58,454 nucleotides of DNA from Paludibacteraceae bacterium. GTDB taxonomy: Bacteria > Bacteroidota > Bacteroidia > Bacteroidales > Paludibacteraceae. The translations under genes were made by a program, and so were the position numbers. The stretch spans positions 1 through 58,454 of the forward strand of contig JAGCWA010000007.1 of NCBI GenBank assembly GCA_017962085.1, given 5' to 3'. Shown one piece after another: positions 4,072 through 58,454 of the stretch (the first letter of the stretch is position 1; every line of letters starts with the position of its first letter). Under the pieces are notes generated by a model. It saw only the letters and a program-made list of their open reading frames with translations, was not told where the DNA came from and did no database searches.

Positions 4072-4387
4072 AAATCAGATATTTTATTGTCCTAAATTAT
4101 AAAAGAATTTACAATTTGACAACCTAATGCAATTTACGATTTGACGATTTACGATTTGTGGGGTTCGTGGGTATTTACGATTTTATGATTTACGATTTAC
4201 TATTTGCGGCGTTCGTGGACATTTACAAATAACGGGGGAACATACATACATGCACATCCCCCCGCTAAAAACAGGGGCTTACACCCCTGCCTGTGTTGTA
4301 GTCGCCCCATTGGGGCTCAGGGTGTACGCATCATATGGGGATCACTCCCCAAGCAACTCTTAATTCTTAACTCTTAATTCCTAATTA
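4072..4387. repeat. intergenic repeat mosaic: AT-rich string plus hairpin chain
   Basis: No gene is seen here. About 4096-4225 holds repeated ttacgattt/acaattt strings in several near-copies. About 4262-4335 holds short GC-rich inverted repeats: a copy of the AGGGG...CCCCT type around the words acacccctg, and gccccattggggc. The last roughly 110 bases before the 4388 gene end closely match the corresponding bases before the end of the next BspA-like gene (about 7385-7500). The 3' flank and gene end were therefore probably duplicated together. Confidence 0.75.
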
Positions 4388-7153
4388 TCAAAGCATTACC
4401 TTCACGCTCTTCGCCTCTGTCTTAACAACGAACATTCCCTTGCCAGGCAAGACGAAGCGGACAGTCTCATTCTCCTTGCCCTGTGCGGCACGCAGCAATT
4501 TACCGTTGAGGTCATAGACCTCGATGCGGCCCTCAGCGCCACGCACGAAAAGGGAGAGGTTCTCCGTCCAGATGGTGCAATCGGTTGAGGCGAGGTTATC
4601 CGTACCGGTTTGTTCAGAAATTTTCACGGTCCAGCCCTCAGGGATTCTGTTTATGCCGTACTCCTGAGGCAATTCTTTCGGGCAGATGAAAGTGCCGGTA
4701 GGGGCTACGCCAGCGACCCATGAATTGTCCATTCCCTCCCACTCCGAGAAACTGACCTTGATTTGGGAGATGCTATGGCAGCTGTCGAACATATTTTCGT
4801 AGCATCCCTCCTCCAATTTTGTGGCAGGGAGTTCCGGCGCCTGTGTCAGGTTGGTGCATTCCGCGAACATGGTGGCATAGCAGTATCGACTCAATTCTTT
4901 GGCGGGGAGTTCCGGCGCTTGAGTCAGGCTGGTACAATATCCGAACATCCTCATGTAGCATCCTTGTTGCAGTGATGTGGCAGGGAGTTCCGGCGCCTTC
5001 TTCAGGTCGACGCATCCTGCGAACATTAGCACGTAGCATCCTTGTCGCAGTGATGTGGCGGGGAGTTCCGGCGCTTCAATCAGGTTGGCGCAGTTTTGAA
5101 ATAATCCCTCAAAGCAAAAATCGGAGGGTATCGTCTTGCTTACACCTGCTGCGTCGATCAGGCTCATGATGCTTCCGCTGGCGGCGACGGAACCGGTCAT
5201 GGCGAAATGTATGCCATTGTTTCCACGGACGATAAGTCCATCAGGGTTGTACCCCCTCAGTAAAGCTTTGTCGCCTTTCTTTCCCAGCGTGATCGTATCG
5301 ATACCTATGAGTGGTGCCCATGTTTGTCCATTGTCCAAGGAGTATTGGATATTAGGGTATAGCATCAAGAAATAGGGATCATCTTGTGTTATGCTGAAGG
5401 AAGAACTGTCCATTTCGGCGGTGAAGGTGAGGTAGTTGAAATTCTCCGTCCGCCATCCCTCCGGGATCCGGTCGGTGCCATATTCCTTCGCCAATTTCTG
5501 TGGTGAGATGAAGGTGCCGGAAGGGGCGACATTGGAGAGCCAGTTGAGGGTCGCTTCGGAATCCGTCCAATCGCTGAAGCTCACGTTGACCAAGGAAAGG
5601 TTTCCGCAACCGTCGAACATTGAATCGTAGCAATGTGCGGCAAGCTTCATGGCAGATAGCACAGGCGTCTGTGTCAGGCCGGTGCAACCTTGGAACATCT
5701 TCTGGTAGCAGCCTTCGGTCAGGGTCGTGGCGGAAAGGATCGGCGCGCGTTTCAGGCATTGGCATTGCTCGAATAGTCCATAAAAACAATAAGGGTTCGG
5801 GATGGTCTGGCATGCGCCTATGCCGTCGATCAGGCTCATCACGTTACCGTCGGCTTCGATGGAGCCGGACATGACGAATTGGGTGTGGTTCTCTTCTCCC
5901 CAGGAGAATCCCTGAGGGTTGTATCCTTTCATCATTGCCTGGTCATATTTCGCCAAGACGATTTTCTCGCCGGAGATGAGAGGGGACCAAGTCCGGCCAC
6001 TGTCCAAGGAGTATTGCAGGTCGGGGATGGAGTCGCCCCACGTCATGATCCCGAAGGAGGAGCTGTCCTCCTTGGCGGTGAAGGTGAGGTAGTCGAAGAA
6101 TACCAGTTCCCAACCCTCCGGGATATTGTTTACGCTATAATCCTTGGCTGTTCCCCGAGGGCAAATAAAGATGCCGGTGGGAGCCACGTTGGCGACCCAT
6201 GATTGGCTGTACATATCTTCGACGAGTCCCCATTGGGTATAGCCTATCCTTATCTTGGACAGACTGGTGCAACCGTCGAACATATTCTTGTAGCAATCTT
6301 TGACCAGTACCTTAGCGGGTAGCTCAGGAGCCTCCTTCAGGCTGGTACATTCCTCGAACATTCCAGAGTAGCAATTATAATCCAAGGTAGTGGCGGGAAG
6401 TTCCGGTGCCTGTGTTAGATTGGTGCATCTGCTAAACATGCCCATGTAACAATGGTTACCCAGAGTGGTGGCGGGAAGTTTGGGGGCTTTCGCCAAGCTG
6501 GTGCAACCAGCGAACATTACGTTATAGCACCCCTCAGCCAAAGTGGTGGCGGGAAGTTCCGGCGCCTGCGTCAGAGAAGTGCAACCAGCGAACATTCCCA
6601 AATAGCAACTTTCAGCCAATGTGGTGACGGGAAGAGCGGGTGCCTGCGTCAGAGAAGTGCAACCAGAGAACATTGCGTGGTAGCAACCGTCAGTTAGAGT
6701 GGTGGCGGGGAGTTCCGGCGCCTGCGTCAGCGCTTGGCAATTATAGAACAAATCGCTGAAACAGTATGGGTTGGGAATCACTTTACTTTCCCCTGTGCTA
6801 TCGATCAGGCTCATCACACTACCGCTTGCGGCGATGGAACCGGTCATGGAGAAATGGGTGGCAATCTCTGGGTATTCAGTGAAATGCTCCGGGTTGTATC
6901 CCTTCAACAAGGCCTTGTCTCCCTTCTTATTCAAAGTGACCGTGTCTGTTCCCGAAAGGGTAGTCCATGTCTCTCCGTTGTCCAAGGAATAGCGGACATC
7001 AGGGAAGGTTTGGAAATGATCAAGAGGAGGAAAAATATAATTGCCTATTGTGAAGGTGGAACTGTCTTCTTGGGCGGTGAAGGTGAGATAATTGGCCGCA
7101 AAACCATTATAGGCACACAGCAACATGAACAATAACGTGATTCTTCTATTCAT
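4388..7153 (-). CDS. BspA/DUF285-like repeat protein with T9SS-type C-terminal tail (921 aa)
   Basis: Secreted repeat protein. The signal peptide is MNRRITLLFMLLCAYNGFAA. There are three modules (about residues 20-350, 355-575 and 575-835). Each opens with YLTFTA..DSS.F and a YSLDNG.TW strand, passes through KGDKALL.GYNP and a GS..ASG.VMSLID block, continues as 26-residue repeats (C-Y-x-x-M-F-x-G-C-T-S-L-T-Q-A-P-E-L-P-A-T-T-L), and closes with VAPTGTFICP and IPEGW. I count 6, 2 and 4 repeats. The last 70 residues (LFVRGAEGRIEVYDLNGKLL, then a Gly turn and VVKTEAKSVKVML) resemble type A sorting domains of the type IX secretion system, so the protein probably reaches the cell surface. BspA-type repeats in this phylum are linked to adhesion; the ligand here is unknown. 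Five relatives lie in the window. Confidence 0.85.
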   Translation of the reverse strand: MNRRITLLFMLLCAYNGFAANYLTFTAQEDSSTFTIGNYIFPPLDHFQTFPDVRYSLDNGETWTTLSGTDTVTLNKKGDKALLKGYNPEHFTEYPEIATHFSMTGSIAASGSVMSLIDSTGESKVIPNPYCFSDLFYNCQALTQAPELPATTLTDGCYHAMFSGCTSLTQAPALPVTTLAESCYLGMFAGCTSLTQAPELPATTLAEGCYNVMFAGCTSLAKAPKLPATTLGNHCYMGMFSRCTNLTQAPELPATTLDYNCYSGMFEECTSLKEAPELPAKVLVKDCYKNMFDGCTSLSKIRIGYTQWGLVEDMYSQSWVANVAPTGIFICPRGTAKDYSVNNIPEGWELVFFDYLTFTAKEDSSSFGIMTWGDSIPDLQYSLDSGRTWSPLISGEKIVLAKYDQAMMKGYNPQGFSWGEENHTQFVMSGSIEADGNVMSLIDGIGACQTIPNPYCFYGLFEQCQCLKRAPILSATTLTEGCYQKMFQGCTGLTQTPVLSAMKLAAHCYDSMFDGCGNLSLVNVSFSDWTDSEATLNWLSNVAPSGTFISPQKLAKEYGTDRIPEGWRTENFNYLTFTAEMDSSSFSITQDDPYFLMLYPNIQYSLDNGQTWAPLIGIDTITLGKKGDKALLRGYNPDGLIVRGNNGIHFAMTGSVAASGSIMSLIDAAGVSKTIPSDFCFEGLFQNCANLIEAPELPATSLRQGCYVLMFAGCVDLKKAPELPATSLQQGCYMRMFGYCTSLTQAPELPAKELSRYCYATMFAECTNLTQAPELPATKLEEGCYENMFDSCHSISQIKVSFSEWEGMDNSWVAGVAPTGTFICPKELPQEYGINRIPEGWTVKISEQTGTDNLASTDCTIWTENLSLFVRGAEGRIEVYDLNGKLLRAAQGKENETVRFVLPGKGMFVVKTEAKSVKVML

Positions 7154-7495
7154 AATACCCTGAATTTATGTTTATTACATGAAAAGCGTAACGTTGCATC
7201 CATACTCCATGCGCAACGATTGTTGATTTTAAATATTCAACAAAAATAATAAAATAAATGAAGATACGTAATGATTATTTTACAATTTACAATTTACGAT
7301 TTACAACACACATCCGCCCTAATTCCGCTAACGTCTGTATTGTTGTCACCCCTTCGGGGTTCATATCACACATATTGTTTGTCAAACAGGGGTTTACACC
7401 CCTGCCTGTGATGTGGTCGCCCCTATGGGGCTCAGGGTGTACGCATCATATGGGGATCACTCCCCAAGCAACTCTTAACTCTTAATTCTTAATTA
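7154..7495. repeat. intergenic repeat mosaic upstream of the 7153 start and downstream of the giant BspA-like gene
   Basis: No gene is seen. The stretch contains an AT-rich string (about 7270-7305), a hairpin reading accccttcggggt (about 7348-7360, the reverse complement of the ACCCC-GAA-GGGGT hairpin found elsewhere), aggggtttacacccct (about 7390) and gcccctatggggc (about 7420). Its last roughly 110 bases closely match 4280-4387, which suggests duplication of a gene-end plus 3'-flank unit. Confidence 0.75.
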
Positions 7496-10400
7496 TCAAA
7501 GTATTACCTTCACACTCTTCGCCTCTGTCTTAACAACGAACACACCCTCCGCAGGCAAGACGAAACGGATGGTTTCGCCACTCTTTCCCTGTGCGGCGCG
7601 CAGCAGTTGTCCATTGAGGTTATAGACCTCGACGAGGCCTTCGGCGCCACGGACGAAGAGGGTATGGCCTTCGTTCCAGATGGTGAAGTTGGACGAAGAG
7701 AGGTTCTCCAAGCCGTTCCCGCCGTCTGAGTACACTATCTTCCAGCCCTCTGGTATATGGCTCCCATCATATATCTCAGCCAGTTTTTTCGGGCAGGTGA
7801 AAGTACCGGTCGGGGCGACGTCCACAACCCAATCGGAAGTGCAATCCCACGTGGAGAAGGAAACACTGATTTCGGACAAGCTTTCGCAATCCTGGAACAT
7901 ACCCGAATAACAATCCATGGCAAGTTGGGTGGCAGGCAAATTCGGTGCTTTGGTCAGGCTGGTGCAGCCATTGAACATATCTGCATAACAATAAGCAGTC
8001 AACGTCATGGCAGGCAATTCAGGCGCTTGCGTCAGGCTGGTGCAGCCATTGAACATATTACTATAACAACCATCGTTCAATGTGGTGGCGAGCAATTCAG
8101 GCGCTTGCGTCAGGCTGGTGCAGCCATTGAACATATTACAATAACAATAATCATATAACGACGTGGCAGGCAATTCAGGCGCTTGCGTCAGGCTGATACA
8201 ATCCTTAAACAAATATTTATAACAACAATAAGCTAACTTCGTGGCGGGCAGTTTAGGCGCTTGCGTCAAGCTGGTGCACCCTTCAAACATACTGCAATAA
8301 CATTCACCACTGGACAGCAAGGTTGCTGGCAACTGAGGCGCTTGGGTCAAGCCGGAGCAGTTCATGAACATGTAACGATAACAAGCATCAGCTAAAGATA
8401 AGGCGGGCAACTCAGGCGCTTGCGTCAACTTAGTGCAATTTTTGAACATGCCCTCATAGCATTGTATAGTCAATATTGCAGCAGGCAATTTAGGCGCTTG
8501 CGTCAGGCTGGTGCATCCTTCAAACATACTTTTATAACAAAAATCAGTCAACGTCATGGCAGGCAATTCAGGCGCTTGCGTCAGGCTGGTGCATTCTTTG
8601 AACAGATTCTCGAAACAATGGCTGCCATTCCGAGCAATCATGGTAATCCCGCCCTCGTTATCCACGAGGCTCATCACACTTCCGCTCGCCGCTATTTTGC
8701 CGGTCATTGAGAAAAACGAGTAACTGTCACTGGACCTTGAAAATCCATTGGTGCTGTTTTCCCCTCTCAGCAAGGCGAAATCTCCCGTTTGCTTCAGAAT
8801 GACAAACTCAGCCGGCACAAGTTTCTTCCATGTTAGCCCGTCATCCAACGAGTACTGGATATCAGGACTATTGTTGACATGTACGATGCTGAACGAGGAG
8901 CTGTCCTCCATGGCGGTGAAGGTGAGGTAGCCCTTCTTGGATGCGATGGTCCACCCTACAGGAATCCTATCCTCGCCATACTCCTCGGGCAGTACCTCCA
9001 AGCAGGAGAAAGTGCCGGTCGGGGCGACATCCTTGACCCATGTCTGGGTGCTTTCCGACCAGTCTTTGAAGTTTACTTTAATGTAGAAGAGGCTGCTGCA
9101 TCCGTTGAACATTGCCTCATAGCACCCATTCGCCAAATGGGAGGCATAGAGTGCAGGCGCATGCACCAGATTGGTGCACCCTTCGAACATGGCTTTATAA
9201 CAGTCGTCAGCCAATTTGGTCGCTGGCAGTTCAGGCGCTTGCGTCAGGCTGGTGCACCCCTTGAACATGCCAGCATAACATCCCTTTGCCAAAGAGGTCG
9301 CCGGCAGCCTTGGCGCTTGCAATAGGCTGGCGCACCCTTCGAACAGTTTTGTGAAGCAATGGCTACCATTCTGAGGCATCACAGTCGTTTTGCCCTCGCT
9401 ATCCAGAAGGGTCATCACATCACCGCTGGCCATGATTTCACCCGTCATCGTGAAGTGCGAGTATGCCTCCTCGGATTTTGAGAAGCCATCGGTGCTATTA
9501 TCTCCCTTCAGCAAGGCGTAATCGCCTATGTGTTCCAAGATGACAGGCTCATCCGCCTTAAGGTCCGTCCACGTATTCCCGCCATCCAAGGAGTATTGGA
9601 TATTAGGATTATTGGAGACATTTACGATGCCGAACGAGGAGTTGTCCTCCATGGCGGTGAAGGTGAGGTAATCCGCATCCATGTATACGATTGACCACCC
9701 CTGTGGTATTTTACTCGTGCCGTACTCCTCCTTCAATTTATTCGGGCAGATGAAGGTGCCGGAAGGGGCGACATCCGCAACCCAAGACTGGGTGCTTTCC
9801 GACCAACTGTTGAAGCCGACTGAGATGGAGGAGAGTCTCTGACAACCGGAGAACATGGATTCGTAACATTTCAATGCCAGCTGGGTAGCGGGGAGCTCAG
9901 GCGCTTGGGTCAGGTCAGTGCACCCCACGAACATGGACTCGTAACAGTAATCCGCCAGTTGGGTGGCAGGCAGTTCAGGCGCCTGGGTTAGGTTGGAGCA
10001 TAAGTTAAACATGGCTTGATAGCAGTGTTCAGCCATTATGGTGGCGGGGAGTTCGGGCGCTTGGGTCAAGCCAATGCAGCTGCCGAACATTCCCTTGTAA
10101 CACCACTGGATCAGTTTCGTGGCGGGGAGTTCGGGCGCTTGGGTCAAGCCGTAGGCTCCTTCGAACATACGTCCGTAGCAGTATTCCGCCAGTTCCATAG
10201 CGGGGAGCTCAGGCGCCTGGGTCAAGCCATAGCACGATGAGAACATATACGAGTAGCAACCTTCGGCCAGTTGCGTGGCAGGAAGCACGGGCGCCTGGGT
10301 CAGGCTGTAGTCATTTTCGAACATATGTCCGTAGCAGTAAGCCGTCAGTTCCGTAGCGGGGAGTTCAGGTGCTTGGGTCAAGCAGGAGCACCCTTTGAAC

Positions 10401-13400
10401 AGGCTGAAGAAACAATAATCACATGGGATGACGTCGCTCGTTCCTGAACCGTCGACAAGACTCATCACGTTACCGCTTGCTGCGATGGAACCAGACATGA
10501 AGAACTGGGTGAATTGGGTTTCTGACAGAGAGAATCCTTTTATGTTGTATCCTTTCAGCAAAGCTTTGTCACCCTTCTTTTCCAGGATAATTTGGTCCGA
10601 AGGCGTGAGGACTTTCCATGTCAGTCCGTTGTTCAAAGAATATTGGAGGTCGGGGATACTGCTGCTTGTGTTTTTGATTCCGAAGTAAGAACTATCCTCT
10701 TCAGCGGTGAAGGTGAGGTAGTTCAGGCTCAAGTTCGTCTTCGTCCACCCCTCAGGTATCTTATCCACACCATACTTTTCGGGCAGTTTTTCCGGACAAA
10801 TGAAGGTGCCGGTCGGGGCGACACCCTCAACCCAAGAGCCGGTGTTTTCCGTCCAGCTGGAGAAGTCCACTGTGATGGAGGATAGGCTGTCGCACCCGTA
10901 GAACATCGTCTCATAGCATCCAGTGACCAACTTCGTGGCATAAAGGGCAGGCGCTTGGGTCAAGCTGAAGCAGCCATAGAACATGGAGGCGTAGCAATAG
11001 TCCGCCAGATTTTGGGCAGGGAGCTTCGGCGCTTGGGTCAGGCTGACGCATCCCTTGAACATTTGCGAGTAGCAGGATTCGGCCAAGGTGGTGGCGGGGA
11101 GCTCAGGCGCCTGGGTCAGGCTGGCGCAATCTTCGAACATGGATTCGTAGCATGAGGTCTTCATGGAATTGGCGGCCAATTCAGGCGCTTGTGTCAGGCC
11201 GGCGCAACCTTTAAACATTCCTCGGTAACATCCCAACGTCATCTTGGTGGCAGGCAGTTCAGGCGCTTGGGTCAAACTGGTACAACCCTCGAACATGGAT
11301 TCGTAACAATAGCTGGTTATTTCCGTGGCGGGTAGCTTCGGCGCTTGGGTCAGGTTAGTACAGCCCTTGAACATCTCTTTATAGCAATATTCCGCCAATG
11401 TGGTGGATGGAAGTGCGGGCGCTTGCGTCAGGCTGGCGCAATCCATGAACAATCGGAGGAAACAAAACTTGTTCGGAATATTTTTCTCCTTGAGAGTACT
11501 ATCGATCAGGCTCATCACCTCACCGTCCGCGGCGATGGAGCCGGCCATGAAGAACTGGGTGTAGTTCCCCTCTTTTTTGGAAAATCCATTCAGGTTGTAT
11601 CCTCTCAGCAGGGCCTTGTCTCCCTTCTTCGCCAAGATGACCGTATCATTAGAGAGAAGGGTGGTCCATGTCTCTCCGTCGTCCAAGGAGTATTGGATAT
11701 TAGGGTTATTGCTTCCCTGGTTCACGATTCCGAAAAAGGAGCTGTCCGATTCGGCGGTGAAGGAGAGGAATTTTTCCTTCACGTGTATTTCCCCCTTGCG
11801 TTCGATCCGCCATCCCTCAGGTATTCTGTTTGTGTCATACTCCTCAGGCAGCTCTATCGGACAGATGAAGGTACCTGTCGGGGCGACATCCTCCATCCAA
11901 TTTGAGGTTCCACGTTCCGACCAATCGGTGAAATACACCTCGACATGGGATAGGTTCGAGCAACCCTTGAACATATTCGCATAGCAATCGTTAACCAATT
12001 GAGTGGCGGGCAGAACTGGCGATTGGGTCAGGCCGGAACAGTCATTGAACATTTTTGTATAGCAATAAGTAGACAGTTGCGTGGCGGGGAGTTCAGGCGC
12101 CTCTGTCAGGCTGGAACATCCGCTGAACATCTCATAGTAACACCCGATAGCCAGTTGTGTGGCAGGGAGTGCTGGCGCCGCTGTCAGGCTGGAACATCCA
12201 CTGAACATTCCACTGTAACAATCAGAGGTCAACGTGGTGGCGGGGAGATTCGGTGCCTGCGTCAGGGAGGTACAGCCCATAAACATTTCTACATAGCAAT
12301 ATTCCGCCAATTGGGTGGCAGGAAGTGCGGGCGCTTGCGTCAGGCGGGAGCATTTCGTGAACATTCCCGCATAGCAATATTCCGCCAATTGGGAGGCAGG
12401 AAGTGCGGGCGCTTGCGTCAGGCTATCGCAGTTGGCGAACATGTTTCTGTAGCATCCCTTAGCCAATTGGGTGGCGGGGAGTGACGAGGCCTCTTTCATG
12501 CCGTAGCACCATCTGAACATCTCCTCGTAGCAATACTCGGCCAATTGGGTGGCGGGCAGTTTAGGCATTTGCGCGAGGGTGGCGCAGTTGGCGAACATTT
12601 GGTAGCAGCACCTTTCAGCCAGTTTTGTGGCAAGTATTCTCTGCACCTCTGTCAAGTCGTAGCAACCGGTGAACATTTTGTAGTAGCACTCCACATCCAA
12701 TTCTGTGGCAGGCAGTAGCGGTGTCTGTTTCAGGGAGGAGCAATCCTCGAACATGCATGCGTAGCATTTTTCAGCCAACGTCATGGCGGGGAGTGCGGGC
12801 GCCTGGATCAAGCTGCCGCATCCCTTGAACATGTTTTCGTAGCAATGCTCCACCATTGTGGTGGCGGGCAGGGCCGGCGCTTTGGTCAGCTTCGCGCAAT
12901 TGGAGAACATATCGGTACAACAATAGCTTGCCAATTGGGTGGCGGGCAGTGCGGGCACCTCCGTGAGATTGGTACAATTATTGAACATCTCTTGGTAGCA
13001 CTCATCGACCAATTGGGTGGCGGGCAGTGCGGGAGCCTCCGTCAGGCTGGTGCAACCGCTAAACATCCCCCTGTAACATCCTTTGTCCAGCTGCGTGGCG
13101 GGAAGTGCAGACGCTTGGGTGAGTTTGGTGCAACCACTAAACATTCCAGCGTAACATTCTGCGAACATCTGGGTGGCAGGCAAAGCGGGGGCCTCTGTCA
13201 GGCTGGTGCAATTGCTGAACATCTCACCGTAACAGCCAGTAGACAGCATGGTGGCGGGCAAGGCAGGCGCCTCTGTCAGCTTGGCGCAACCGCTAAACAT
13301 CCCTTTGTAAGATTCCACGTCCAGTCGCGTGGCGGGGAGCGCGGGGGCCTCTGTCAGGCTGGTGCAACCACCAAACATATCCATGTAACACTCGATAGCC

Positions 13401-14311
13401 AGTTGGGTGGCGGGAAGTACAGGCGCTTGGGTGAGTTTGGCACAGCCATTAAACATTCCAGTGTAACAATAATCGAACATTTGGGTAGCGGGCAATTCCG
13501 GCGCTTTTGTCAGGTTGGAGCAGCCACTAAACATTCCTGAATAACATTCTTTAGTCAGTTGAGTGGCAGGAAGTGCGGGCGCTTGGGTGAGTTTGGAGCA
13601 ACCCCAAAACATTCCAGTGTAACATTTCTCGGACAATTGGGTGACGGGAAGTTCAGGGGCTTCTGTCAGGCTGGAACACTGGTAGAACATGGAATAATAG
13701 CAACTCTCCGCCAGCGTAGTGGCAGGAAGTGCGGGCGCCTCTTCCAGACTGGAGCATAGACTAAACATTGATGCGTAGCAAGCATTGGCGAGTCGGGTGG
13801 CAGGAAGCGCGGGTGCATTTTTCATGTAGACGCAATGATCGAACATCTCCTTATAACAGCTTGCGGTCAGTGTGGTGGCAGGAAGTTCTGGAGCACTTGT
13901 CATTCTACCACAGTTCTTGAACAAGCGGTAGAAGCAATAGTCGTTCGGGATGGTCTTGCTCTCCCCCTTGCCGTCGATCAGACTCATCACGTTTCCGCTC
14001 ACGGCGATGAAACCAGTCATGGTGAAATAGGAGTAGGTGTCTATGTCTAAGGAAAATCCATCCGGGTTGACTCCTTTCAATAGGGCCTTGTCTCCCTGTT
14101 CTTCCAGCTTAACCGAGGTATTATTCGCGAGGGGAATCCATGTCTCTCCGTTGTCCAGGGAATACTGGAGGTCGGGGGCGTTTCCTTCTTCGCTTTTTAT
14201 TCCGAAGGTGGAATTAGCGGTTTCAGAGGTGAAAACCAAGTAGTTGGCTGCGAAAGTAGCCGTGCAATACGCACACAATAGTATAAAAAGTAGCGTAAAT
14301 TTTTTATTCAT
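7496..14311 (-). CDS. giant BspA/DUF285-like repeat protein, five modules (2271 aa)
   Basis: The start is placed at the ATG at 14311 because it gives the signal peptide MNKKFTLLFILLCAYCTATF just before ANYLVFTSE. The frame continues 41 codons upstream, but that extension is not signal-like. Five modules share the layout of the neighbouring paralogues. I count about 25, 7, 7, 3 and 9 repeats of the 26-residue unit, 51 in all. Nearly every repeat carries two cysteines eight residues apart (CYxxMFxGC), so the protein has roughly 100 cysteines. The end carries a T9SS-type sorting tail (LFVRGAEGLVEVYNLNGQLL ... VVKTEAKSVKVIL). It is probably a surface solenoid or adhesin. The run of 25 nearly uniform 78-bp units in the first module suggests expansion by unequal recombination. 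The repeats match DUF285 in rhythm but are a Pro/Ala-rich variant, so the family name is approximate. Confidence 0.85.
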   Translation of the reverse strand: MNKKFTLLFILLCAYCTATFAANYLVFTSETANSTFGIKSEEGNAPDLQYSLDNGETWIPLANNTSVKLEEQGDKALLKGVNPDGFSLDIDTYSYFTMTGFIAVSGNVMSLIDGKGESKTIPNDYCFYRLFKNCGRMTSAPELPATTLTASCYKEMFDHCVYMKNAPALPATRLANACYASMFSLCSSLEEAPALPATTLAESCYYSMFYQCSSLTEAPELPVTQLSEKCYTGMFWGCSKLTQAPALPATQLTKECYSGMFSGCSNLTKAPELPATQMFDYCYTGMFNGCAKLTQAPVLPATQLAIECYMDMFGGCTSLTEAPALPATRLDVESYKGMFSGCAKLTEAPALPATMLSTGCYGEMFSNCTSLTEAPALPATQMFAECYAGMFSGCTKLTQASALPATQLDKGCYRGMFSGCTSLTEAPALPATQLVDECYQEMFNNCTNLTEVPALPATQLASYCCTDMFSNCAKLTKAPALPATTMVEHCYENMFKGCGSLIQAPALPAMTLAEKCYACMFEDCSSLKQTPLLPATELDVECYYKMFTGCYDLTEVQRILATKLAERCCYQMFANCATLAQMPKLPATQLAEYCYEEMFRWCYGMKEASSLPATQLAKGCYRNMFANCDSLTQAPALPASQLAEYCYAGMFTKCSRLTQAPALPATQLAEYCYVEMFMGCTSLTQAPNLPATTLTSDCYSGMFSGCSSLTAAPALPATQLAIGCYYEMFSGCSSLTEAPELPATQLSTYCYTKMFNDCSGLTQSPVLPATQLVNDCYANMFKGCSNLSHVEVYFTDWSERGTSNWMEDVAPTGTFICPIELPEEYDTNRIPEGWRIERKGEIHVKEKFLSFTAESDSSFFGIVNQGSNNPNIQYSLDDGETWTTLLSNDTVILAKKGDKALLRGYNLNGFSKKEGNYTQFFMAGSIAADGEVMSLIDSTLKEKNIPNKFCFLRLFMDCASLTQAPALPSTTLAEYCYKEMFKGCTNLTQAPKLPATEITSYCYESMFEGCTSLTQAPELPATKMTLGCYRGMFKGCAGLTQAPELAANSMKTSCYESMFEDCASLTQAPELPATTLAESCYSQMFKGCVSLTQAPKLPAQNLADYCYASMFYGCFSLTQAPALYATKLVTGCYETMFYGCDSLSSITVDFSSWTENTGSWVEGVAPTGTFICPEKLPEKYGVDKIPEGWTKTNLSLNYLTFTAEEDSSYFGIKNTSSSIPDLQYSLNNGLTWKVLTPSDQIILEKKGDKALLKGYNIKGFSLSETQFTQFFMSGSIAASGNVMSLVDGSGTSDVIPCDYCFFSLFKGCSCLTQAPELPATELTAYCYGHMFENDYSLTQAPVLPATQLAEGCYSYMFSSCYGLTQAPELPAMELAEYCYGRMFEGAYGLTQAPELPATKLIQWCYKGMFGSCIGLTQAPELPATIMAEHCYQAMFNLCSNLTQAPELPATQLADYCYESMFVGCTDLTQAPELPATQLALKCYESMFSGCQRLSSISVGFNSWSESTQSWVADVAPSGTFICPNKLKEEYGTSKIPQGWSIVYMDADYLTFTAMEDNSSFGIVNVSNNPNIQYSLDGGNTWTDLKADEPVILEHIGDYALLKGDNSTDGFSKSEEAYSHFTMTGEIMASGDVMTLLDSEGKTTVMPQNGSHCFTKLFEGCASLLQAPRLPATSLAKGCYAGMFKGCTSLTQAPELPATKLADDCYKAMFEGCTNLVHAPALYASHLANGCYEAMFNGCSSLFYIKVNFKDWSESTQTWVKDVAPTGTFSCLEVLPEEYGEDRIPVGWTIASKKGYLTFTAMEDSSSFSIVHVNNSPDIQYSLDDGLTWKKLVPAEFVILKQTGDFALLRGENSTNGFSRSSDSYSFFSMTGKIAASGSVMSLVDNEGGITMIARNGSHCFENLFKECTSLTQAPELPAMTLTDFCYKSMFEGCTSLTQAPKLPAAILTIQCYEGMFKNCTKLTQAPELPALSLADACYRYMFMNCSGLTQAPQLPATLLSSGECYCSMFEGCTSLTQAPKLPATKLAYCCYKYLFKDCISLTQAPELPATSLYDYCYCNMFNGCTSLTQAPELLATTLNDGCYSNMFNGCTSLTQAPELPAMTLTAYCYADMFNGCTSLTKAPNLPATQLAMDCYSGMFQDCESLSEISVSFSTWDCTSDWVVDVAPTGTFTCPKKLAEIYDGSHIPEGWKIVYSDGGNGLENLSSSNFTIWNEGHTLFVRGAEGLVEVYNLNGQLLRAAQGKSGETIRFVLPAEGVFVVKTEAKSVKVIL

Positions 14312-14593
14312 AAGCATCCATTTTTTATGTAACCACATTAAGAGGGCTTCCCTGCGACATATTCTATGCCTCACGTAAAAACACCTCCCATTATATACCC
14401 TAAATTTCCTCAAATGTAGTAAATATAATCGCAAATTATACTATTTTTTAAATAAAAATGATAATTCGGCGAACAAACTATGAAACGTTAGTTCGCCGAG
14501 GTCAATTTTGAATTATGAATTTGGATATTTACGATTTACGGGGAAACATCCATGTATGCGCATCACCCCCCGCTAAAGTCTAAAGCCTAAAAT
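14312..14593. other. gap between BspA-like genes holding one diverged 26-bp element
   Basis: No gene is seen. The part next to 14311 is the upstream region of the giant gene. A diverged plus-strand copy of the 26-bp element lies at 14482-14507 (gaaacgttagttcgccgag...). A short AT-rich ttacgattt string follows at about 14525-14545. Confidence 0.6.
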
Positions 14594-15919
14594 CTATAAT
14601 CTAATCAATCGATTCATCGAACCATTCTTAACAACATACGTTCCCCCCGCAGGCATGATGAACTGTATGGTTTCACCGCTCTTCCCCTCTGCGGCACGCA
14701 ACAGCTGTCCGTTGAGGCCATAGATCTCGACGAGGCCCTCAGCGCCACGCACGAAGAGGGTGCGCCCTTCGGTCCAGATGGTGCAGTCGGTTGATGCGAT
14801 GTTTTCCGTGCCCGTCCCATCATTAGGTTTCATGTTCCAACCCTCAGGGATTTTATCCTTGCCATATATCTCTTTCAGGGTTGACGGACAGATGAAGGTG
14901 CCGGTCGGGGCGACGCTGTCCACCCATGATTGGGAACCACCCCACTGGGTGAAGCCCACCGTGATTTGGGAAAGGTTGGAGCATTTGGCGAACAGCTCCT
15001 TGTAGCAGTCTTGGGCCAGCTCCGTAGCAGGAAGTTGGGGCGATTTCTCCAGGCTGGTGCACCTTTTGAACATACCCCTATAGCACTCCTTTTTCAATTT
15101 CGTAGCGGGGAGTTCAGGGGCTTTTTTCAGGCTGGTACAACCTGTGAACATCTCACAATAGCAGTTGATGGCCAGCTCCGTGGCAGGGAGGTCGGGCGCT
15201 TCCTCTAGGCTGGTGCAACCGATGAACATCTGCACGTAACAAAAATCCCTCAAAACCGTAGCGGGAAGCTTAGGCGCCTTCGTCAGGCTGGAGCATCCGT
15301 CGAACAATCCTCCGTAGCAGCCATTAGCCATCTCAGTAGCCGGCAGTTCGGGAGCTTCCTTCAGGCTAGTACACCGCCAGAACATTCCGTCGTAACACAT
15401 CATCTCCATCTCCATGGCGGGCAGCTCCGGCGCCCTCGTGAGGTTGGAGCAATCGATGAAAATAGACTTATAGCAGGCCATCTTAAGTTTCGTGGCGGGC
15501 AACTCCGGCGCCTGGGTCAGACTGGAGCAACCACTGAATAGTTCGAAAAAACAATGTGGGCAAGGAATCTCCTCGCTTTCCCCCACCCCGTCGATCAGGC
15601 TCATCACGCTTCCGCTGGCGGCGATGGAACCGGTCATGGTGAAATGGGTATAGTTGTTTTCGTCGCTGGAGAATCCATCCGGATTGTTACCCCTCAGAAG
15701 GGCCTTGGCGCCCTGCTCCAGCGGAATCATTTCACCTTCCGGGAGGGTATTCCATGTTCCTCCGTCGTCCAAGGAATACTGGACGTCCACACTATTGTCC
15801 TCATTTACAATGCCGAAGGAAGAACTGTCCGCCTCGGCGGTGAAGGTGAGGTAATTGACCGCGGAAGCAAAAGTATAGGCGCATAGCAACGCAACCAACG
15901 ATGTTAGTCTCTTGATCAT
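14594..15919 (-). CDS. BspA/DUF285-like repeat protein, single module (441 aa)
   Basis: Smallest paralogue of this minus-strand group. The signal peptide is MIKRLTSLVALLCAYTFASA. One YLTFTAEADSSSFGI module is followed by about seven 26-residue repeats, then VAPTGTFICP and IPEGW. The final roughly 75 residues (TEGRTLFVRGAEGLVEIYGL and onward) form a T9SS-type sorting tail that ends in a diverged RLIRL. Its N-terminus is closest to that of the 47900 gene, 32 kb away on the other strand (MIK(R/K)LT, then VALLCA), which points to dispersal of family members rather than only local tandem duplication. Probably surface exposed; ligand unknown. Confidence 0.85.
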   Translation of the reverse strand: MIKRLTSLVALLCAYTFASAVNYLTFTAEADSSSFGIVNEDNSVDVQYSLDDGGTWNTLPEGEMIPLEQGAKALLRGNNPDGFSSDENNYTHFTMTGSIAASGSVMSLIDGVGESEEIPCPHCFFELFSGCSSLTQAPELPATKLKMACYKSIFIDCSNLTRAPELPAMEMEMMCYDGMFWRCTSLKEAPELPATEMANGCYGGLFDGCSSLTKAPKLPATVLRDFCYVQMFIGCTSLEEAPDLPATELAINCYCEMFTGCTSLKKAPELPATKLKKECYRGMFKRCTSLEKSPQLPATELAQDCYKELFAKCSNLSQITVGFTQWGGSQSWVDSVAPTGTFICPSTLKEIYGKDKIPEGWNMKPNDGTGTENIASTDCTIWTEGRTLFVRGAEGLVEIYGLNGQLLRAAEGKSGETIQFIMPAGGTYVVKNGSMNRLIRL

Positions 15920-29325: not shown

Positions 29326-29351
29326 GAAACGTCAGTTCGACGTAGTCAATT
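29326..29351 (+). repeat. 26-bp dispersed element downstream of tamL
   Basis: Copy of the element that begins GAAACG and ends GTAGTCAATT. It lies 22 bp after the tamL stop, in the same orientation, preceded by the usual leader aattaagaatttt. Other copies are at 14482, 30538, 32530, 32558, 33988 (minus), 35524, 35892, 50027, 50147, 50215 and 58134. Confidence 0.8.
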
Positions 29352-30532: not shown

Positions 30533-30813
30533 ATTTTGAAACGTCAGTTCGACGTAGTCAATTTTTTTTGGGGGGGGGACGTGCAATTCTACACGATGCG
30601 CATATCCCTAGCCCCAGCGGGGCGACATCCCCCAGGCAGGGGTGTAAACCCCTGATGACGAACGGGTTCGGGACACGGAGCCCTGAAAGGGCGAAACATA
30701 TCTAGCCTAGGGCAACACCCTAGGGGAATATGTTGGTCGTAAATTGTAAATTGTAAATCGTAAATCGTTAAATTGTAAATCTCTCGGAGGCTTTGTCGGA
30801 TGCCTGCATAACC
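30533..30813. repeat. repeat block: 26-bp element, hairpin chain, AT-rich string
   Basis: No gene. The 26-bp element is at 30538-30563, followed by a G-run. The hairpin-chain module is at about 30590-30740: AGCCCC-AGC-GGGGCG, CAGGGGTGTAAACCCCTG, GCCCT-GAA-AGGGC (30680-30692) and CCTAGGGC-AAC-ACCCTAGG (about 30715). An AT-rich gtaaattgtaaatcg string fills about 30728-30785. A close copy of the module lies at about 50275-50405. Confidence 0.8.
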
Positions 30814-33647: not shown

Positions 33648-34041
33648 ACCTGCTCTTTTTTCGGGCGCAAAATTACAAAAAAATTAAGAATTAAGAGTGA
33701 AGAGTGAAAAATTGAGGTGGGGCGAGGGAATTTACTATTTGACGATTTACGATTTGTGGAGTTCGTGTATATTTACGATTTATGATTGGCGCATGAACCC
33801 CGGAAGGGGTGATACGATTGGAGATTTACAATTTTGTGATTTACAATTTGTGGGGATACGCACATCCCAACCGACTCATAATTCTTAATTATCCACAACC
33901 CAGGGCATTGCCCATGGGCTATATATGTTTCGCCCCTTCAGGGCTCGGGTATGTGCAGTGCGTAGAATTGCACGTCCCCCCAAAAGAAATTGACTACGTC
34001 GAACTGACGTTTCAAAATTCAAAATTCAAAATTCTTAATTC
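33648..34041. repeat. intergenic repeat mosaic with a minus-oriented 26-bp element
   Basis: No gene. AT-rich ttacgattt strings fill about 33728-33860. A hairpin ACCCC-GGAA-GGGGT occurs near 33796. A reversed hairpin-chain piece (CCCAGGGC-ATT-GCCC, gccccttcagggc) runs at about 33897-33950. The 26-bp element is at 33988-34013 in minus orientation, the same orientation as the BspA-like gene whose stop lies just beyond it at 34042. Confidence 0.75.
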
Positions 34042-35418
34042 TTAATTCTTCACGATCTTCCATCCCTTAGGTATTTTATGGTCGCCATATATCTTCGGAA
34101 GGATATCAGGGCAGATGAAGGTGCCGGAAGGGGCGACGTCGGAGACCCAGGAATCGGTGTCCCATTTCATCGAATATTGTTTCCCCCAGTTGATGAAGTT
34201 CACTTTGATGGAAGAGATTTTAGCACAACCGAGGAACATCTCCCTATAGCACCATTTTTCCAGTTTGGTGGCGGGCAAATCGGGTGCTTGCGTCAGGTTC
34301 GTGCATCCGGCGAACATTTTATCGTAGCATAATTTTTCCAGCGTAGTGGCGGGAAGGTCTGGCGCCTGTGTCAGGCTGGTACAGTCATAGAACATTCCAA
34401 GGTAACATTTTGAGGCCAATGTGGTGGCGGGGAGTTCAGGGGCTTGCGTGAGGCTAATGCAACTGTCGAACATGTAGCCGTAGCACAACTCTTCCAGCGT
34501 GGTGGCTGGGAGCTGTGGCGCTTTCGTCAGGCTGGTGCATTTGGAGAACATTCTGTCATAACAAGCAGATTCCAATGTGGTGGCGGGAAGTTCGGGTGCT
34601 TCCTTCAGGCTGGTACACCCCAAAAACATTCCGACATAACACTCCTCGGCCAATGTGGTAGCGGGAAGTTTAGGTGCCTGTGTCAGGCTGGTGCATCCCT
34701 TAAACATATTCTCATAACAGGATTCCGCCAAGGTGGTAGCAGGGAGAGCAGGTGCTTCCTTCAGACTGGTACACCCAGCAAACATTCTATAGTAACATTT
34801 CCCAGCAAGTTCTGTGGCAGGCAATGCCGGAGCTTTCGTCAGACTGGTGCAATTCAAAAACAGTCCTTCGAAACAAAAGGACAACTTCGGAATCACTTTT
34901 GTCTCTCCCTTACCGTCGATAAGGCTCATCACACTGCCGCTGGCGGAGATGGAGCCCGTCATGACGAAGTGAACCCTCCTATAGAAGGTGGAGAATCCTG
35001 ACACCTGATTATCCCCTCTTAGCAGGGCCTTGTCCCCTTTCTTCGCCAAAGTGATCGTTTCCTTATTTACGAAGTTGATCCATGTCTGCCCATTGTCCAA
35101 AGAGTACTGCGCATCAAGTGAATTAGCGGCCATTGTGTCAACCGTTTCGGAAATGAGTTCACCGGCTCTATACGAACTGCTTTTTATAGGACGCTGGGCT
35201 GTATAAGATATTCCAAATGTGGAATTATCCGCCTCGGCCGTGAAGGTGAGGTAGCCGCCGGATTGGGTAGATGCGTTGTCTTTCTTAGGCGTAACGGTGG
35301 CTTGGGAAGGTTGACTAGGTGTATTCTTTTTTTGATAAATAATTACATTGTTGGCGGCGAAGGCGGTGCAACAAAGGCCTAACAGCAGGAGGATAAGGGG
35401 GATGATTCTTTTGAGCAT
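34042..35418 (-). CDS. BspA/DUF285-like repeat protein, no sorting tail (458 aa)
   Basis: The start at ATG 35418 gives the signal peptide MLKRIIPLILLLLGLCCTAF; 25 upstream in-frame codons are not signal-like. After a Lys/Gln/Thr-rich linker (about residues 25-55) comes one YLTFTAEADNSTFGI module. Its YSLDNG strand is preceded by an unusual insert of about 25 residues (RPIKSSSYRAGELISETVDT and onward). Eight 26-residue repeats follow, ending in VAPSGTFICP and IPKGWKIVKN. The T9SS-type tail is absent: the stop falls in the AT-rich leader of a co-oriented 26-bp element, the same ending type as the 29414 gene. The protein may therefore remain periplasmic or rely on another route. Confidence 0.85.
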   Translation of the reverse strand: MLKRIIPLILLLLGLCCTAFAANNVIIYQKKNTPSQPSQATVTPKKDNASTQSGGYLTFTAEADNSTFGISYTAQRPIKSSSYRAGELISETVDTMAANSLDAQYSLDNGQTWINFVNKETITLAKKGDKALLRGDNQVSGFSTFYRRVHFVMTGSISASGSVMSLIDGKGETKVIPKLSFCFEGLFLNCTSLTKAPALPATELAGKCYYRMFAGCTSLKEAPALPATTLAESCYENMFKGCTSLTQAPKLPATTLAEECYVGMFLGCTSLKEAPELPATTLESACYDRMFSKCTSLTKAPQLPATTLEELCYGYMFDSCISLTQAPELPATTLASKCYLGMFYDCTSLTQAPDLPATTLEKLCYDKMFAGCTNLTQAPDLPATKLEKWCYREMFLGCAKISSIKVNFINWGKQYSMKWDTDSWVSDVAPSGTFICPDILPKIYGDHKIPKGWKIVKN

Positions 35419-36054
35419 ACTATTCAATTGTTGGTGATAACACAAATATATGTTTTTGGGTGGGAAAATGCAAGAGGGAACGGGAGACGGCATGATAATT
35501 AAGAATTATGAATTATGAATTATGAAACGGCGGTTCGACATGGTCAATTTACTATTTTACGATTTACGATTTACGACGGTAACAATCCGATGGAACGCAC
35601 ATCCGCCCTAATTCCGCACGCACCCATACCCCGGTAGGGGTTTCCTTTTAATAGGGAAGAAGACATGATGACGGACATGATACCCCATAGGGGTTTCTTT
35701 TTAATCGGAACGCACACCTAGATAATTTTGAATTAAGAATTATGAATTAAGAATTGGGGGCGGAAGTACATCCCTACATGATGCGTACAACCTAAGCCCC
35801 ATAGGGGCGACATCCCCCAGGCAGGGGTGTCAACCCCTGTATGACGGATGGGTGTACGATAGGAACCCCGAAGGGGTGACACGATAATTATGAAACGGCA
35901 GTTCGACATGGTCAATTTACTATTTGACTATTTACGATTTGCATGGGAACATCCATATATGCGCATCCCCCGCTAATGTCTAGGCTCTAATGCCTAATGT
36001 CTAACGCCTAACATCTATTATCACAATTTTTATTTCATAATTCTCTTGTCTGTT
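35419..36054. repeat. long intergenic repeat block between the BspA-like gene and pckA
   Basis: No gene is seen. Two diverged plus-oriented 26-bp elements (35524-35549 and 35892-35917) use gaaacgg and gacatggtcaatt. Short CCCC..TAGGGG hairpins occur at about 35625-35700. A full hairpin-chain module is at about 35780-35880, with AGCCCC-ATA-GGGGCG, CAGGGGTGTCAACCCCTG and ACCCC-GAA-GGGGT at 35865-35877. AT-rich strings follow both 26-bp elements. The last roughly 100 bases contain repeated ctaatgtctaacgcctaa words. Confidence 0.75.
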
Positions 36055-39605: not shown

Positions 39606-39770
39606 ATGTCTGACAATAAATTCAAAGGAACCTATCGTATACCTTCCGCCCGTGCACAATGGCATGATTATGAGGGTGGCGAATATTTCGTAACAATCTG
39701 CACCCCAACCCATGGACATTTTTCGGGGAATTTGTAAATGATAAAATCGCAAATTCCCTATACGGTGCGT
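39606..39770 (+). pseudogene. N-terminal remnant of a REP-associated tyrosine transposase (RAYT, IS200-like)
   Basis: ATG 39606 opens MSDNKFKGTYRIPSARAQWH, DYEGGEYFVTICTPTHGHF, the typical start of Bacteroidetes RAYT/Y1-transposases (compare the usual RIPSAR..YDY..G.YFVTICT..R..YFG). The frame stops at 39737. Restoring one T in the run ttttt near 39718-39723 would give HFFGEFVNDKIANS, the expected continuation, so a one-base deletion has broken it. Similarity ends at about 39765, where a hairpin-chain repeat begins. The conserved HxH motif part is missing here but appears at 41751. Confidence 0.75.
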
Positions 39771-39870
39771 ACGACCAAGCCCCATAGGGGCGTCATAACA
39801 CAGGCAGGGGTGCTAACCCCTGTACGACGGATGGATGTGTGATGGAAACCCTGAAAGGGTGAAACGTGAA
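39766..39870. repeat. hairpin-chain repeat module disrupting the RAYT remnant
   Basis: Close relative of the module at 35780-35880: gtgcgtacgacc, AGCCCC-ATA-GGGGCG, CAGGGGTGCTAACCCCTG, then ACCCT-GAA-AGGGT at 39848-39860 and gaaacgtg. The third hairpin differs from other copies at paired positions while keeping its stem. Confidence 0.75.
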
Positions 39871-39933
39871 TAGTTATGAGTTAAAAATTAGGAGTTAAGA
39901 ATTAAAAGTTGATGGGATGTATCCCTCCCTTCC

Positions 39934-50026: not shown

Positions 50027-50411
50027 GAAACGTTAGTTCGACGTAGTCAATTAGGGCGGGACGTGCGTATCCTTGCATGTTGCGTATATCCCAGCCCTGA
50101 AGGGGCGAAACATATATAGCCTGGGGCAACGCCCTAGGGTAATTAAGAAACGTCAGTTCAACGAAGTCAATTGGGGTGTGCGGTTTGCATGCCCCTTTTT
50201 TAATTATGAATTTTGAAACGTCAGTTCGACGTAGTCAATTAAGAATTAAGAGTTAAGGGAAGTGCGTCTCTTTTCACGCTGCGCATACCCAGCCCCAGCG
50301 GGGCGACATCCCCCAGACAGGGGTGTAAACCCCTGATGACAAACGGGTTTGGGACGTGTAGCCCTGAAGGGGCGATACATATATAGCCTAGGGCAACGCC
50401 TTAGGGAATGC
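50027..50411. repeat. repeat block: three 26-bp elements and hairpin-chain modules
   Basis: No gene. The 26-bp elements are at 50027-50052, 50147-50172 (diverged, gttcaacgaag) and 50215-50240, all plus-oriented. A partial hairpin chain (AGCCCT-GAA-GGGGC, gaaacatatatagcc, CCTGGGGC-AAC-GCCC) is at about 50090-50140. A full module is at about 50278-50405, with GCCCT-GAA-GGGGC at 50361-50373 and CCTAGGGC-AAC-GCCTTAGG near 50385-50405. Confidence 0.8.
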
Positions 50412-57639: not shown

Positions 57640-58128
57640 ATGAAGGCATTGCTGAAATATTGGATGGGGACTCTACTCGGACTCCTCCTCTCCGCCAACC
57701 TCTTCGCCCAACAGGGTGCAACCGGGGCGAAGGGAGAGGCGACCGTACCCGCCGCACAAGACACGGTCTACTCGCAGTTGCAGGTGGACCGCAGGGCAAT
57801 CTACCCGGGCGGCACATCCGCATGGGAGGCCTTTTTCGCCAAGAACCACAGGTATCCTGCGGTGGCCAAAGCCTCTGGCCTACAAACCACCGTCGTCGTC
57901 CGCTTCGTCATCCAAAAGGACGGTAGCGTCACCGACCCTGAAATCATCTGCAGCTCTCACCCGCTCTTCACGGAGGAGGTGCTCCGCCTCCTGAAAATAA
58001 TGCCGAAATGGAAGCCTGCGCTGAAACGGGGCAAGCCGTGCGCCTCCTACTATAAACTGCCCTTCATTTTCCAACTCAAGGAGACACCTGTGGACCGGGG
58101 GATGAAAATTTTGAATTATGAATTTTGA
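57640..58128 (+). CDS. exported protein with TonB C-terminal-like domain, operon partner of the DUF4139 pair
   Basis: The start is ATG 57640 (a GTG precedes it directly). The signal is MKALLKYWMGTLLGLLLSAN, cleaved near LFAQ, so the protein should be periplasmic. The TonB_C-like domain reads YPGGTSAWEAFFAKNHRYP, LQTTVVVRFVIQKDGSVTDP, FTEEVLRLLKIMPKWKPALK, YYKLPFIFQL. It lies 22 bp after the second DUF4139 gene. The last residues (MKILNYEF) are encoded by the AT-rich leader of a 26-bp element that starts six bases after the stop, as in the 29414 gene. A fourth relative of the 16168-17971 trio. Confidence 0.8.
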   Translation: MKALLKYWMGTLLGLLLSANLFAQQGATGAKGEATVPAAQDTVYSQLQVDRRAIYPGGTSAWEAFFAKNHRYPAVAKASGLQTTVVVRFVIQKDGSVTDPEIICSSHPLFTEEVLRLLKIMPKWKPALKRGKPCASYYKLPFIFQLKETPVDRGMKILNYEF

Positions 58129-58454
58129 ATTTTGAAACGTCAGTTCGACGTAGTCAATTGTAAATCATAAAATCGTAAATCCCAATGTAAATATATCGTG
58201 GACCTATACACTCTACTTGTTGCGTCTTTTATCAAACTGATTATCAGTATTTTGTAAAATAAGTGCACCTATTTTCCATGTGTTGTGAGCCAATTTTCTT
58301 ACCCTTAACAAATTCATCCACTCCACCCTGAAAAAGGCAGGAACATATTTAATAAAATTTGAAATTATTCTCATAGGCTAAACTTTCTACCGTCTCTATT
58401 TTTGCGATGATTGTCGAACCAAAAGATTCAGAGCACTATGAACCACATTCGTAA
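58129..58454. other. right-edge gap: 26-bp element, promoter and possible start of next gene
   Basis: The 26-bp element is at 58134-58159, co-oriented with the preceding gene, followed by a short AT-rich string. The rest shows no repeat I recognise. TATTTTTG at 58397-58404 fits the -7 consensus. An ATG at 58438 (frame MNHIR, running off the edge) may be the start of the next gene; only 17 bases of it are present, so this is tentative. Confidence 0.5.

Follow-up and report, generated by a model that had tools for sequence, protein, structure and literature searches.

REP-like hairpin chains in a Paludibacteraceae genome, their kinship with Acido-Lenti-1 and the Y1 transposases of TnpA_Y1 subclass 1.2

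Hairpin chains of the window

The window considered here, the whole 58,454-nucleotide stretch of DNA that was analysed, corresponds to contig C41 in an assembly of 3.37 Mb from a Paludibacteraceae bacterium (genome G000). It contains several open reading frames (ORFs) with 78-base (26-residue) repeats (4388-15919 and 34042-35493; the longest has 2312 residues), which presumably resemble BspA-like leucine-rich repeat surface proteins, and eight places occupied by chains of short hairpins. A dispersed structured repeat had been proposed for these eight places in an earlier note drawn from the sequence, and this is confirmed, a related hairpin chain being recognised at all of them by blastn and by direct reading. 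The blastn E values of the eight copies range from 1e-6 to 2e-90, beyond chance, and the element at 30580-30760, used as a query, has 39 matches genome-wide, many of them partial and one to its A+T-rich tail only. G+C-rich hairpins number 50 in the window, some of them inside genes, against 22-34 in ten first-order Markov shuffles.

The anatomy of the chain was read from an alignment of 75 of the 78 full copies of a three-hairpin module (73 distinct copies in the pair-count, parsimony and tree-aware tests). The first and third hairpins (h1 and h3) are of one kind, A, with the base A, a 5 bp stem mostly of the form RCCCY/RGGGY, a 3-nt loop and then G, and h2 and h4 are of a second, longer kind, B, with 7-8 bp. 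The loop-to-loop distance between h1 and h2, read from the alignment columns, is 28 or 29 and equals that between h3 and h4; A and B thus alternate in the module as A-B-A, and a further B gives the composite form A-B-A-B. The A-B unit comprises A, about 12 nt and B. Two models were used, R1, a covariance model of the three-hairpin module, and R2, a model of the A-B unit for which 27 loci close to transposase genes and two copies of the window supplied the rows (29 in all, one unit per locus; L081 and L090, then L074 and L078, were left out). In 24 of these 29 rows B is directly preceded by AG, a feature on which the rows had not been chosen. The copies of the window are the following.

4257..4336, minus strand: partial chain (h1-h2), by blastn and alignment
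7336..7450, minus strand: A-B-A chain, third hairpin and spacer as beside the transposase gene of contig C38
30590..30730, plus strand: composite chain A-B-A-B, with h1 at 30611-30623, h2 at 30637-30654, h3 at 30680-30692 and h4 at 30706-30724; R2 match at 30678-30726, E 7e-13
33897..33946, minus strand: A-B unit (h3-h4) alone, R2 45.8 bits, also by blastn
35775..35884, plus strand: A-B-A chain (h1-h2-h3), third hairpin ACCCC-GAA-GGGGT identical to that beside the C38 transposase gene
39760..39873, plus strand: A-B-A chain, adjoining the 5' remnant of a class 2 transposase gene
50092..50140, plus strand: A-B unit (h3-h4) alone, R2 58.2 bits, also by blastn
50273..50409, plus strand: composite chain A-B-A-B, R2 match at 50359-50407, also by blastn

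The fourth hairpin is missing from the copies at 35775, 39760 and 7336, and the copies at 33897 and 50092 consist of the third and fourth hairpins only; R2 recovers all four h3-h4 units present in the window and also gives a weak match to the h1-h2 unit at 39777. The four third-hairpin sequences quoted in the earlier note are exact; its fourth hairpin, CCTAGGGC-AAC-GCCCTAGG, holds as a consensus, from which each of the four copies with such a hairpin (30590, 33897, 50092 and 50273) departs. R1 matches, counted as lower bounds with 150 candidates scored per genome, number at least 55 in G000 and from 0 to at least 67 across the 15 further genomes of its genus. Only 5 of 90 chain sites, taken from stretches around the best blastn matches and not a random sample, lie inside an ORF of at least 80 residues (genes being counted here as plain ORFs of that length), the rest being outside such ORFs. 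Multi-copy, mostly intergenic and flanking a Y1 gene, the chains have the properties of REPs in the wide sense.

Two other kinds of repeat were observed in the window. One, a short repeat with the sequence AACGTYRGTTCGACGWAGTCAATT that forms a small hairpin of its own, has 12 copies at up to 3 mismatches, at 29328, 30540, 32532, 32560, 33988 (minus strand), 50029, 50149, 50217 and 58136 and, more weakly, at 14484, 35526 and 35894; six of the 12 lie within 100 bp of a hairpin chain. A+T-rich arrays with periods of 7 or 14 bases (GTAAATT, AATTATG, AATTTTG) are found between genes near the repeats, at 30739-30780, 35497-35526, 35724-35755 and 58107-58136.

Covariation and the fold

Compensatory changes in the stems had been taken in the earlier note to imply selection for structure, with the provision that stem differences shared only by descent within subfamilies would speak against it. 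Such changes do exist: within the genus, 98.7% of the cells of 17 pairs are paired, and 7 pairs have changed on both sides against 2.9 in shuffles, which ignore kinship. The pair at alignment columns 102-114 is G-C in 44 of the 75 copies, A-T in 29 and broken in 2, and parsimony counts 6 double changes between G-C and A-T on a stem-free tree or 2 on an all-column tree. In a tree-aware test, a simplified stand-in for R-scape with 60 simulations along the tree, among the 11 structure pairs in which both columns vary, 102-114 alone reaches E<0.05, and the other significant pair, 47-50, lies outside the structure and marks a subfamily. The covariation first noticed is mainly inherited, because in 63 of the 71 copies with a standard pair the choice between G-C and A-T goes with the subfamily, so that sharing by descent largely accounts for it, and because a single structure pair is significant.

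Selection for the fold is better supported by the comparison of transposase lineages, between which the stems differ and the loops and spacing are constant, than by covariation within the genus. Among 88 B hairpins near 80 transposase genes, chosen with A ignored, a fully Watson-Crick A of 5 bp stands at exactly distance 28 in 21 cases, from 15 loci and with 9 different A stems; elsewhere in the range from 16 to 45, no single distance had a fully paired A for more than 3 of the 88, and when the 3' arms of the 21 A hairpins were dealt out afresh, on average 4.2 and never more than 10 of them were paired. The pair counts of the R2 alignment (98.9% paired, double changes in 13 of 13 pairs) are not used as proof, its rows having been chosen for pairing.

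Transposase genes and their flanking hairpins

The earlier note saw no transposase belonging to the repeat. This is correct for the window, except for the 5' remnant of a gene of another class, but it does not extend to the genome, which holds three Y1_Tnp genes, each flanked on both sides by A and B hairpins (R1 and R2 matches). The three proteins, of 151 residues each, carry DHVH, WQ and Y..Q..HH, the signature of TnpA_Y1 subclass 1.2, and score 70-79 bits with Pfam Y1_Tnp (cut-off 23). The first gene shares 62% and 40% identity with the other two. One of the three transposases has an exact counterpart (100% identity) in a Paludibacteraceae assembly from the rumen (locus L036), which makes a rumen species of this family the most likely host. 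Membership in the IS200/IS605 insertion sequences was rejected, the NCBIfam model NF033573 giving 45-52 bits, below its cut-off of 55, and near-identical gene copies being absent (62% and 40%, as above); so was a class 2 TnpA_REP as the cognate gene, NF047646 (cut-off 80) giving 23-24 bits for two proteins and not listing the third. A PDB sequence search with the C38 protein returned no match. In a tree of 26 rows the IS200-like rows group together (99/98), as do those of class 2 (100/99), but subclass 1.2, taken as a whole, needs 2 changes. The remnant in the window (39606-39737, plus strand) is the 5' part of a class 2 (RAYT-like) transposase gene and lies directly before the 39760 chain; its gene is intact in the relative G010 (contig C8), with GTAG-footed hairpins beside and inside it.

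Quentin et al. (2018, PMC6006769) enter "no" for REPs of TnpA_Y1 subclass 1.2 in their Table 1. The genes described here resemble that subclass, as described there, in DH[IV]H, WQ, Y..Q..HH, a length of about 150 residues, low copy number and occurrence in Bacteroidetes, and differ from its published description, in which the subclass is without REPs, in having A-B units that lie within 600 bp of the gene at 63 of 80 loci and recur in the genome. These 80 loci, the best of 202 in a scan of genome contigs, carry relatives of the transposase from several phyla, including Verrucomicrobiota, Planctomycetota, Lentisphaerota and others; Y..Q..HH is present in 78 of the 80 relatives, and the HUH motif is mostly of the D or N type. 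Hairpin pairs in their 600 bp flanks have loop distances that peak at 28 (63 pairs), against 2 such pairs in a distal control almost twice as long, and none in shuffles; an earlier test of hairpin density (any stem of at least 6 bp), which gave z>3 in 24 of the 80 loci, was too blunt.

The best 150 of 159 R2 matches in the 80 loci are placed closely and in orientation around the gene. Within 600 bp of it lie 139 of them, and within 200 bp the upstream matches are 46 on the plus and 11 on the minus strand and the downstream ones 41 on the minus and 14 on the plus strand. The canonical matches within 200 bp stand at a median of 57.5 bp upstream and 57 bp downstream, the downstream distances being approximate, as gene ends were set by the end of the tblastn match or by a fixed length. 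Among these best 150 matches, both canonical sides are occupied at 28 loci, and 17 of the 80 loci have none of them within 600 bp, which speaks against a REP-like reading. As R2 was built partly from the 80 loci, 29 other Y1 loci serve as an independent set: a match was found at 11 of the 23 with the signature (6 from other genera and 5 from the genus of the window) and at none of the 6 without it. The remaining 12 signature loci (L119, which is the same gene as L187, L120-L123, L125-L127, L132, L134, L138 and L140) have no R2 match at E<=1e-3, a further point against that reading. Since L187 (G004:C47) carries another hairpin chain, further transposase sublineages may own separate units. G007 and G015 also stand against the REP-like reading, being rich in copies of the window type, yet with hairpins of other stems beside their single gene.

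The units are dispersed in the genomes as well. R2 matches were found in all 18 checked genomes behind subclass 1.2 loci, with 2-142 copies and at least 9 in 16 of them, although G071 and G075, with only 2-3 copies, do not fit a REP-like reading well. Across 61 genomes, with the gene called at a threshold of 97 bits that was set after the scores were seen, R2 matches occur in 30 of 36 genomes with the gene and in 6 of 25 without it (P 5e-6), and outside the genus in 17 of 23 and 3 of 22, respectively (P 7e-5), both P values ignoring the kinship of the genomes. The 6 gene-bearing genomes without an R2 match weigh against the REP-like reading. So does G002, which is 100% complete and has 29 R1 and 19 R2 matches, but in which no subclass 1.2 gene was found, and so do G011 (where a contig edge leaves just the end of a gene), G012, G031, G035 and G054, which have R2 matches and no gene of at least 97 bits. 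Because several genes sit near contig ends, flanked by repeats, assembly gaps may hide further ones.

Kinship with Acido-Lenti-1 and origin of the repeat

Searched against Rfam at the gathering score, the window has no match. A sensitive search of 30560-30760 revealed a match to RF01687 at 30679-30724 on the minus strand, which covers all 46 positions of the model with 31.6 bits (E 8e-6; gathering score 37). RF01687 has 13 matches in G000 at E<=1e-3, the best of 46.4 bits; it has matches at E<=0.001 in 28 of the 61 genomes, G000 included, and above the cut-off in 23, and none in 14 control genomes. At the gathering score, five matches were found in 4 of 20 loci hand-chosen from the 80, all within about 320 bp of the gene. 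The family is the Acido-Lenti-1 RNA, which Weinberg et al. (2010, PMC2864571) tabulate as probably an RNA, with Acidobacteria and Lentisphaerae as its hosts. The likeness lies in the two hairpins over 46 positions and the full-length match to an A-B pair of the window; the difference is that RF01687 is catalogued as an RNA, whereas here the unit is part of a DNA repeat beside a transposase, and the window copy scores below the gathering cut-off. Like R2, RF01687 co-occurs with the gene in the 61 genomes (table 24/12/4/21, P 1e-4; with the gene at 145 bits 20/8/8/25, P 3e-4; kinship ignored).

All 14 genomes searched behind such loci contain RF01687 matches, with 2-86 copies. Among the 150 matches listed for them (113 from four genomes, with 26 inverted pairs, and 37 from the other ten), 27 of 29 close pairs are inverted in the order minus-plus, one is plus-minus and one minus-minus, and 23 of the 27 inverted pairs listed are 99-118 bp apart; two of the 26 are overlapping matches, one has its members 592 bp apart, and in the ten-genome set one pair brackets a transposase gene. 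In a Thiotrichales genome, 11 of 13 copies read are A-B-A : A'-B'-A' with at least 5 of 6 hairpins strictly paired, and two (L288 and L295) comprise the first A-B and no more; a Verrucomicrobiota genome yielded six copies of the A-B-A : A'-B'-A' form, with five or six hairpins strictly paired. These gene-less A-B-A : A'-B'-A' pairs are the flank pattern of the gene minus the gene. Some copies of G078 (L284-L295) have an extra outer hairpin (TCACTG..CAGTGA) just outside the first A, possibly the true end of the element. The window copies themselves are not inverted pairs of the REPIN type.

No origin of the repeat was proposed in the earlier note. Taken together, the evidence points to Y1 transposases acting in trans, and the chains are very probably REP-like non-autonomous mobile elements served by a Y1 HUH transposase of TnpA_Y1 subclass 1.2, for which the genome has three genes, all outside the window. 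By analogy with IS200/IS605 and TnpA_REP, the transposase would bind the folded A-B unit in single-stranded DNA, for example during replication, would cut beside the hairpin foot via a tyrosine (Y115 of the C38 protein) and would move or amplify gene-less units in trans. The covariation would reflect the need of the enzyme for a foldable single strand; many of the present copies may be old relics, and copies kept between genes may also act in RNA. With somewhat less confidence, Acido-Lenti-1 can be regarded as chiefly a DNA element, namely the folded single-strand end of the widespread subclass 1.2, in which a two-hairpin A-12-B structure would be recognised and not a single GTAG-guided hairpin, and whose gene-less A-B-A : A'-B'-A' derivatives have spread in several phyla.

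The unit might instead be primarily a structured RNA that works in transcripts, for instance as a 3'-end stabiliser or regulator, its place beside the transposase being incidental or regulatory. RF01687 is filed in Rfam as an sRNA gene, and among the 73 chain sites with two neighbours, from the same non-random stretches as above and with the same plain ORFs as genes, copies between tandem genes are sense in 30 cases, antisense in 3 and mixed in 3. This bias, which transposition alone would not lead one to expect and which counts against the REP-like reading, is 8:1 (P 0.04) with one site per cluster of shared neighbours, orthologous sites thereby removed, and 7:2 in G000 alone. Parsimony on the stem-free tree also gives 20 plus-strand G-T wobble changes against 8 mirror C-A changes, but half of the wobble count is due to one pair. 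An RNA does not explain why, across several phyla, the units flank a single transposase subclass on either side at a narrow distance and mostly inverted, nor the gene-less inverted pairs or the number of copies, up to 142 per genome, and 10 of the 73 sites, plus 4 mixed ones, lie in divergent gaps, downstream of no gene. A primary role as RNA is improbable; DNA would be the origin of the repeat and RNA its possible second use, the strand counts being compatible with a function of the copies in transcripts or with their being tolerated there.

Site 30590 illustrates the turnover of the chains: G000 and G007 carry all four hairpins, and G001 and G010 lack the h1-h2 segment of about 64 bp and have h3-h4 only; AGCCC stands at both ends of the difference and the left flank of G007 differs, so that excision of one A-B segment and slippage both fit. 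A clean empty site for the copy at 39766 was not found among the relatives, whose flanks differ beyond the element. That the chains are passive palindromic repeats of the BIME type, multiplied by gene conversion and by slippage during replication, and that the transposase genes simply happen to occupy gaps rich in such repeats, is very improbable, for although the composite copies and the 64 bp presence or absence at 30590 resemble slippage between like hairpins and some genomes have copies without the gene, it predicts neither the inverted placement at about 57 bp nor the absence of units from all six Y1 genes without the signature nor the co-occurrence across genera.

REP-like repeats with a Y1 enzyme are an already known kind of element. 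The present chains share with the REPs, BIMEs and REPINs of class 2 TnpA_REP (RAYT) the dispersed intergenic palindromes that flank a Y1 gene, the inverted pairs and the existence of genomes with copies and no gene, and differ from them in a two-hairpin unit of fixed spacing and a transposase of another subclass. Membership among the GTAG-REPs was rejected, GT[AG]G preceding B in 1 of the 29 R2 rows and standing at the foot of A in none. The CGTC-tagged REPs, described in the relevant part of PMC3733652 with stems of 8-9 bp, a CGTC tag, occurrence also in Bacteroidetes and no known dedicated transposase, are similar in being short palindromes of Bacteroidetes; on that description the present repeat does not belong to them, as CGTC is at the foot of A in 0 of 29 rows. 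As far as searches of the open-licence literature show, the assignment of the repeat to subclass 1.2, the two-hairpin form without a GTAG foot and the kinship with Acido-Lenti-1 are new, and no paper linking that motif to a transposase was found there.

A regulatory RNA role has been suggested for Acido-Lenti-1 downstream of Tannerella proteases, according to the pertinent part of a 2026 study (PMC13298647); as regards that suggestion, as worded there, the present results call for caution, and Acido-Lenti-1 annotations should not be read as regulatory RNAs. The finding ties together three loose ends, an unexplained RNA motif of Rfam, a transposase subclass without recorded repeats and the abundant hairpins of Bacteroidota and other phyla, and it gives subclass 1.2 a candidate, testable substrate.
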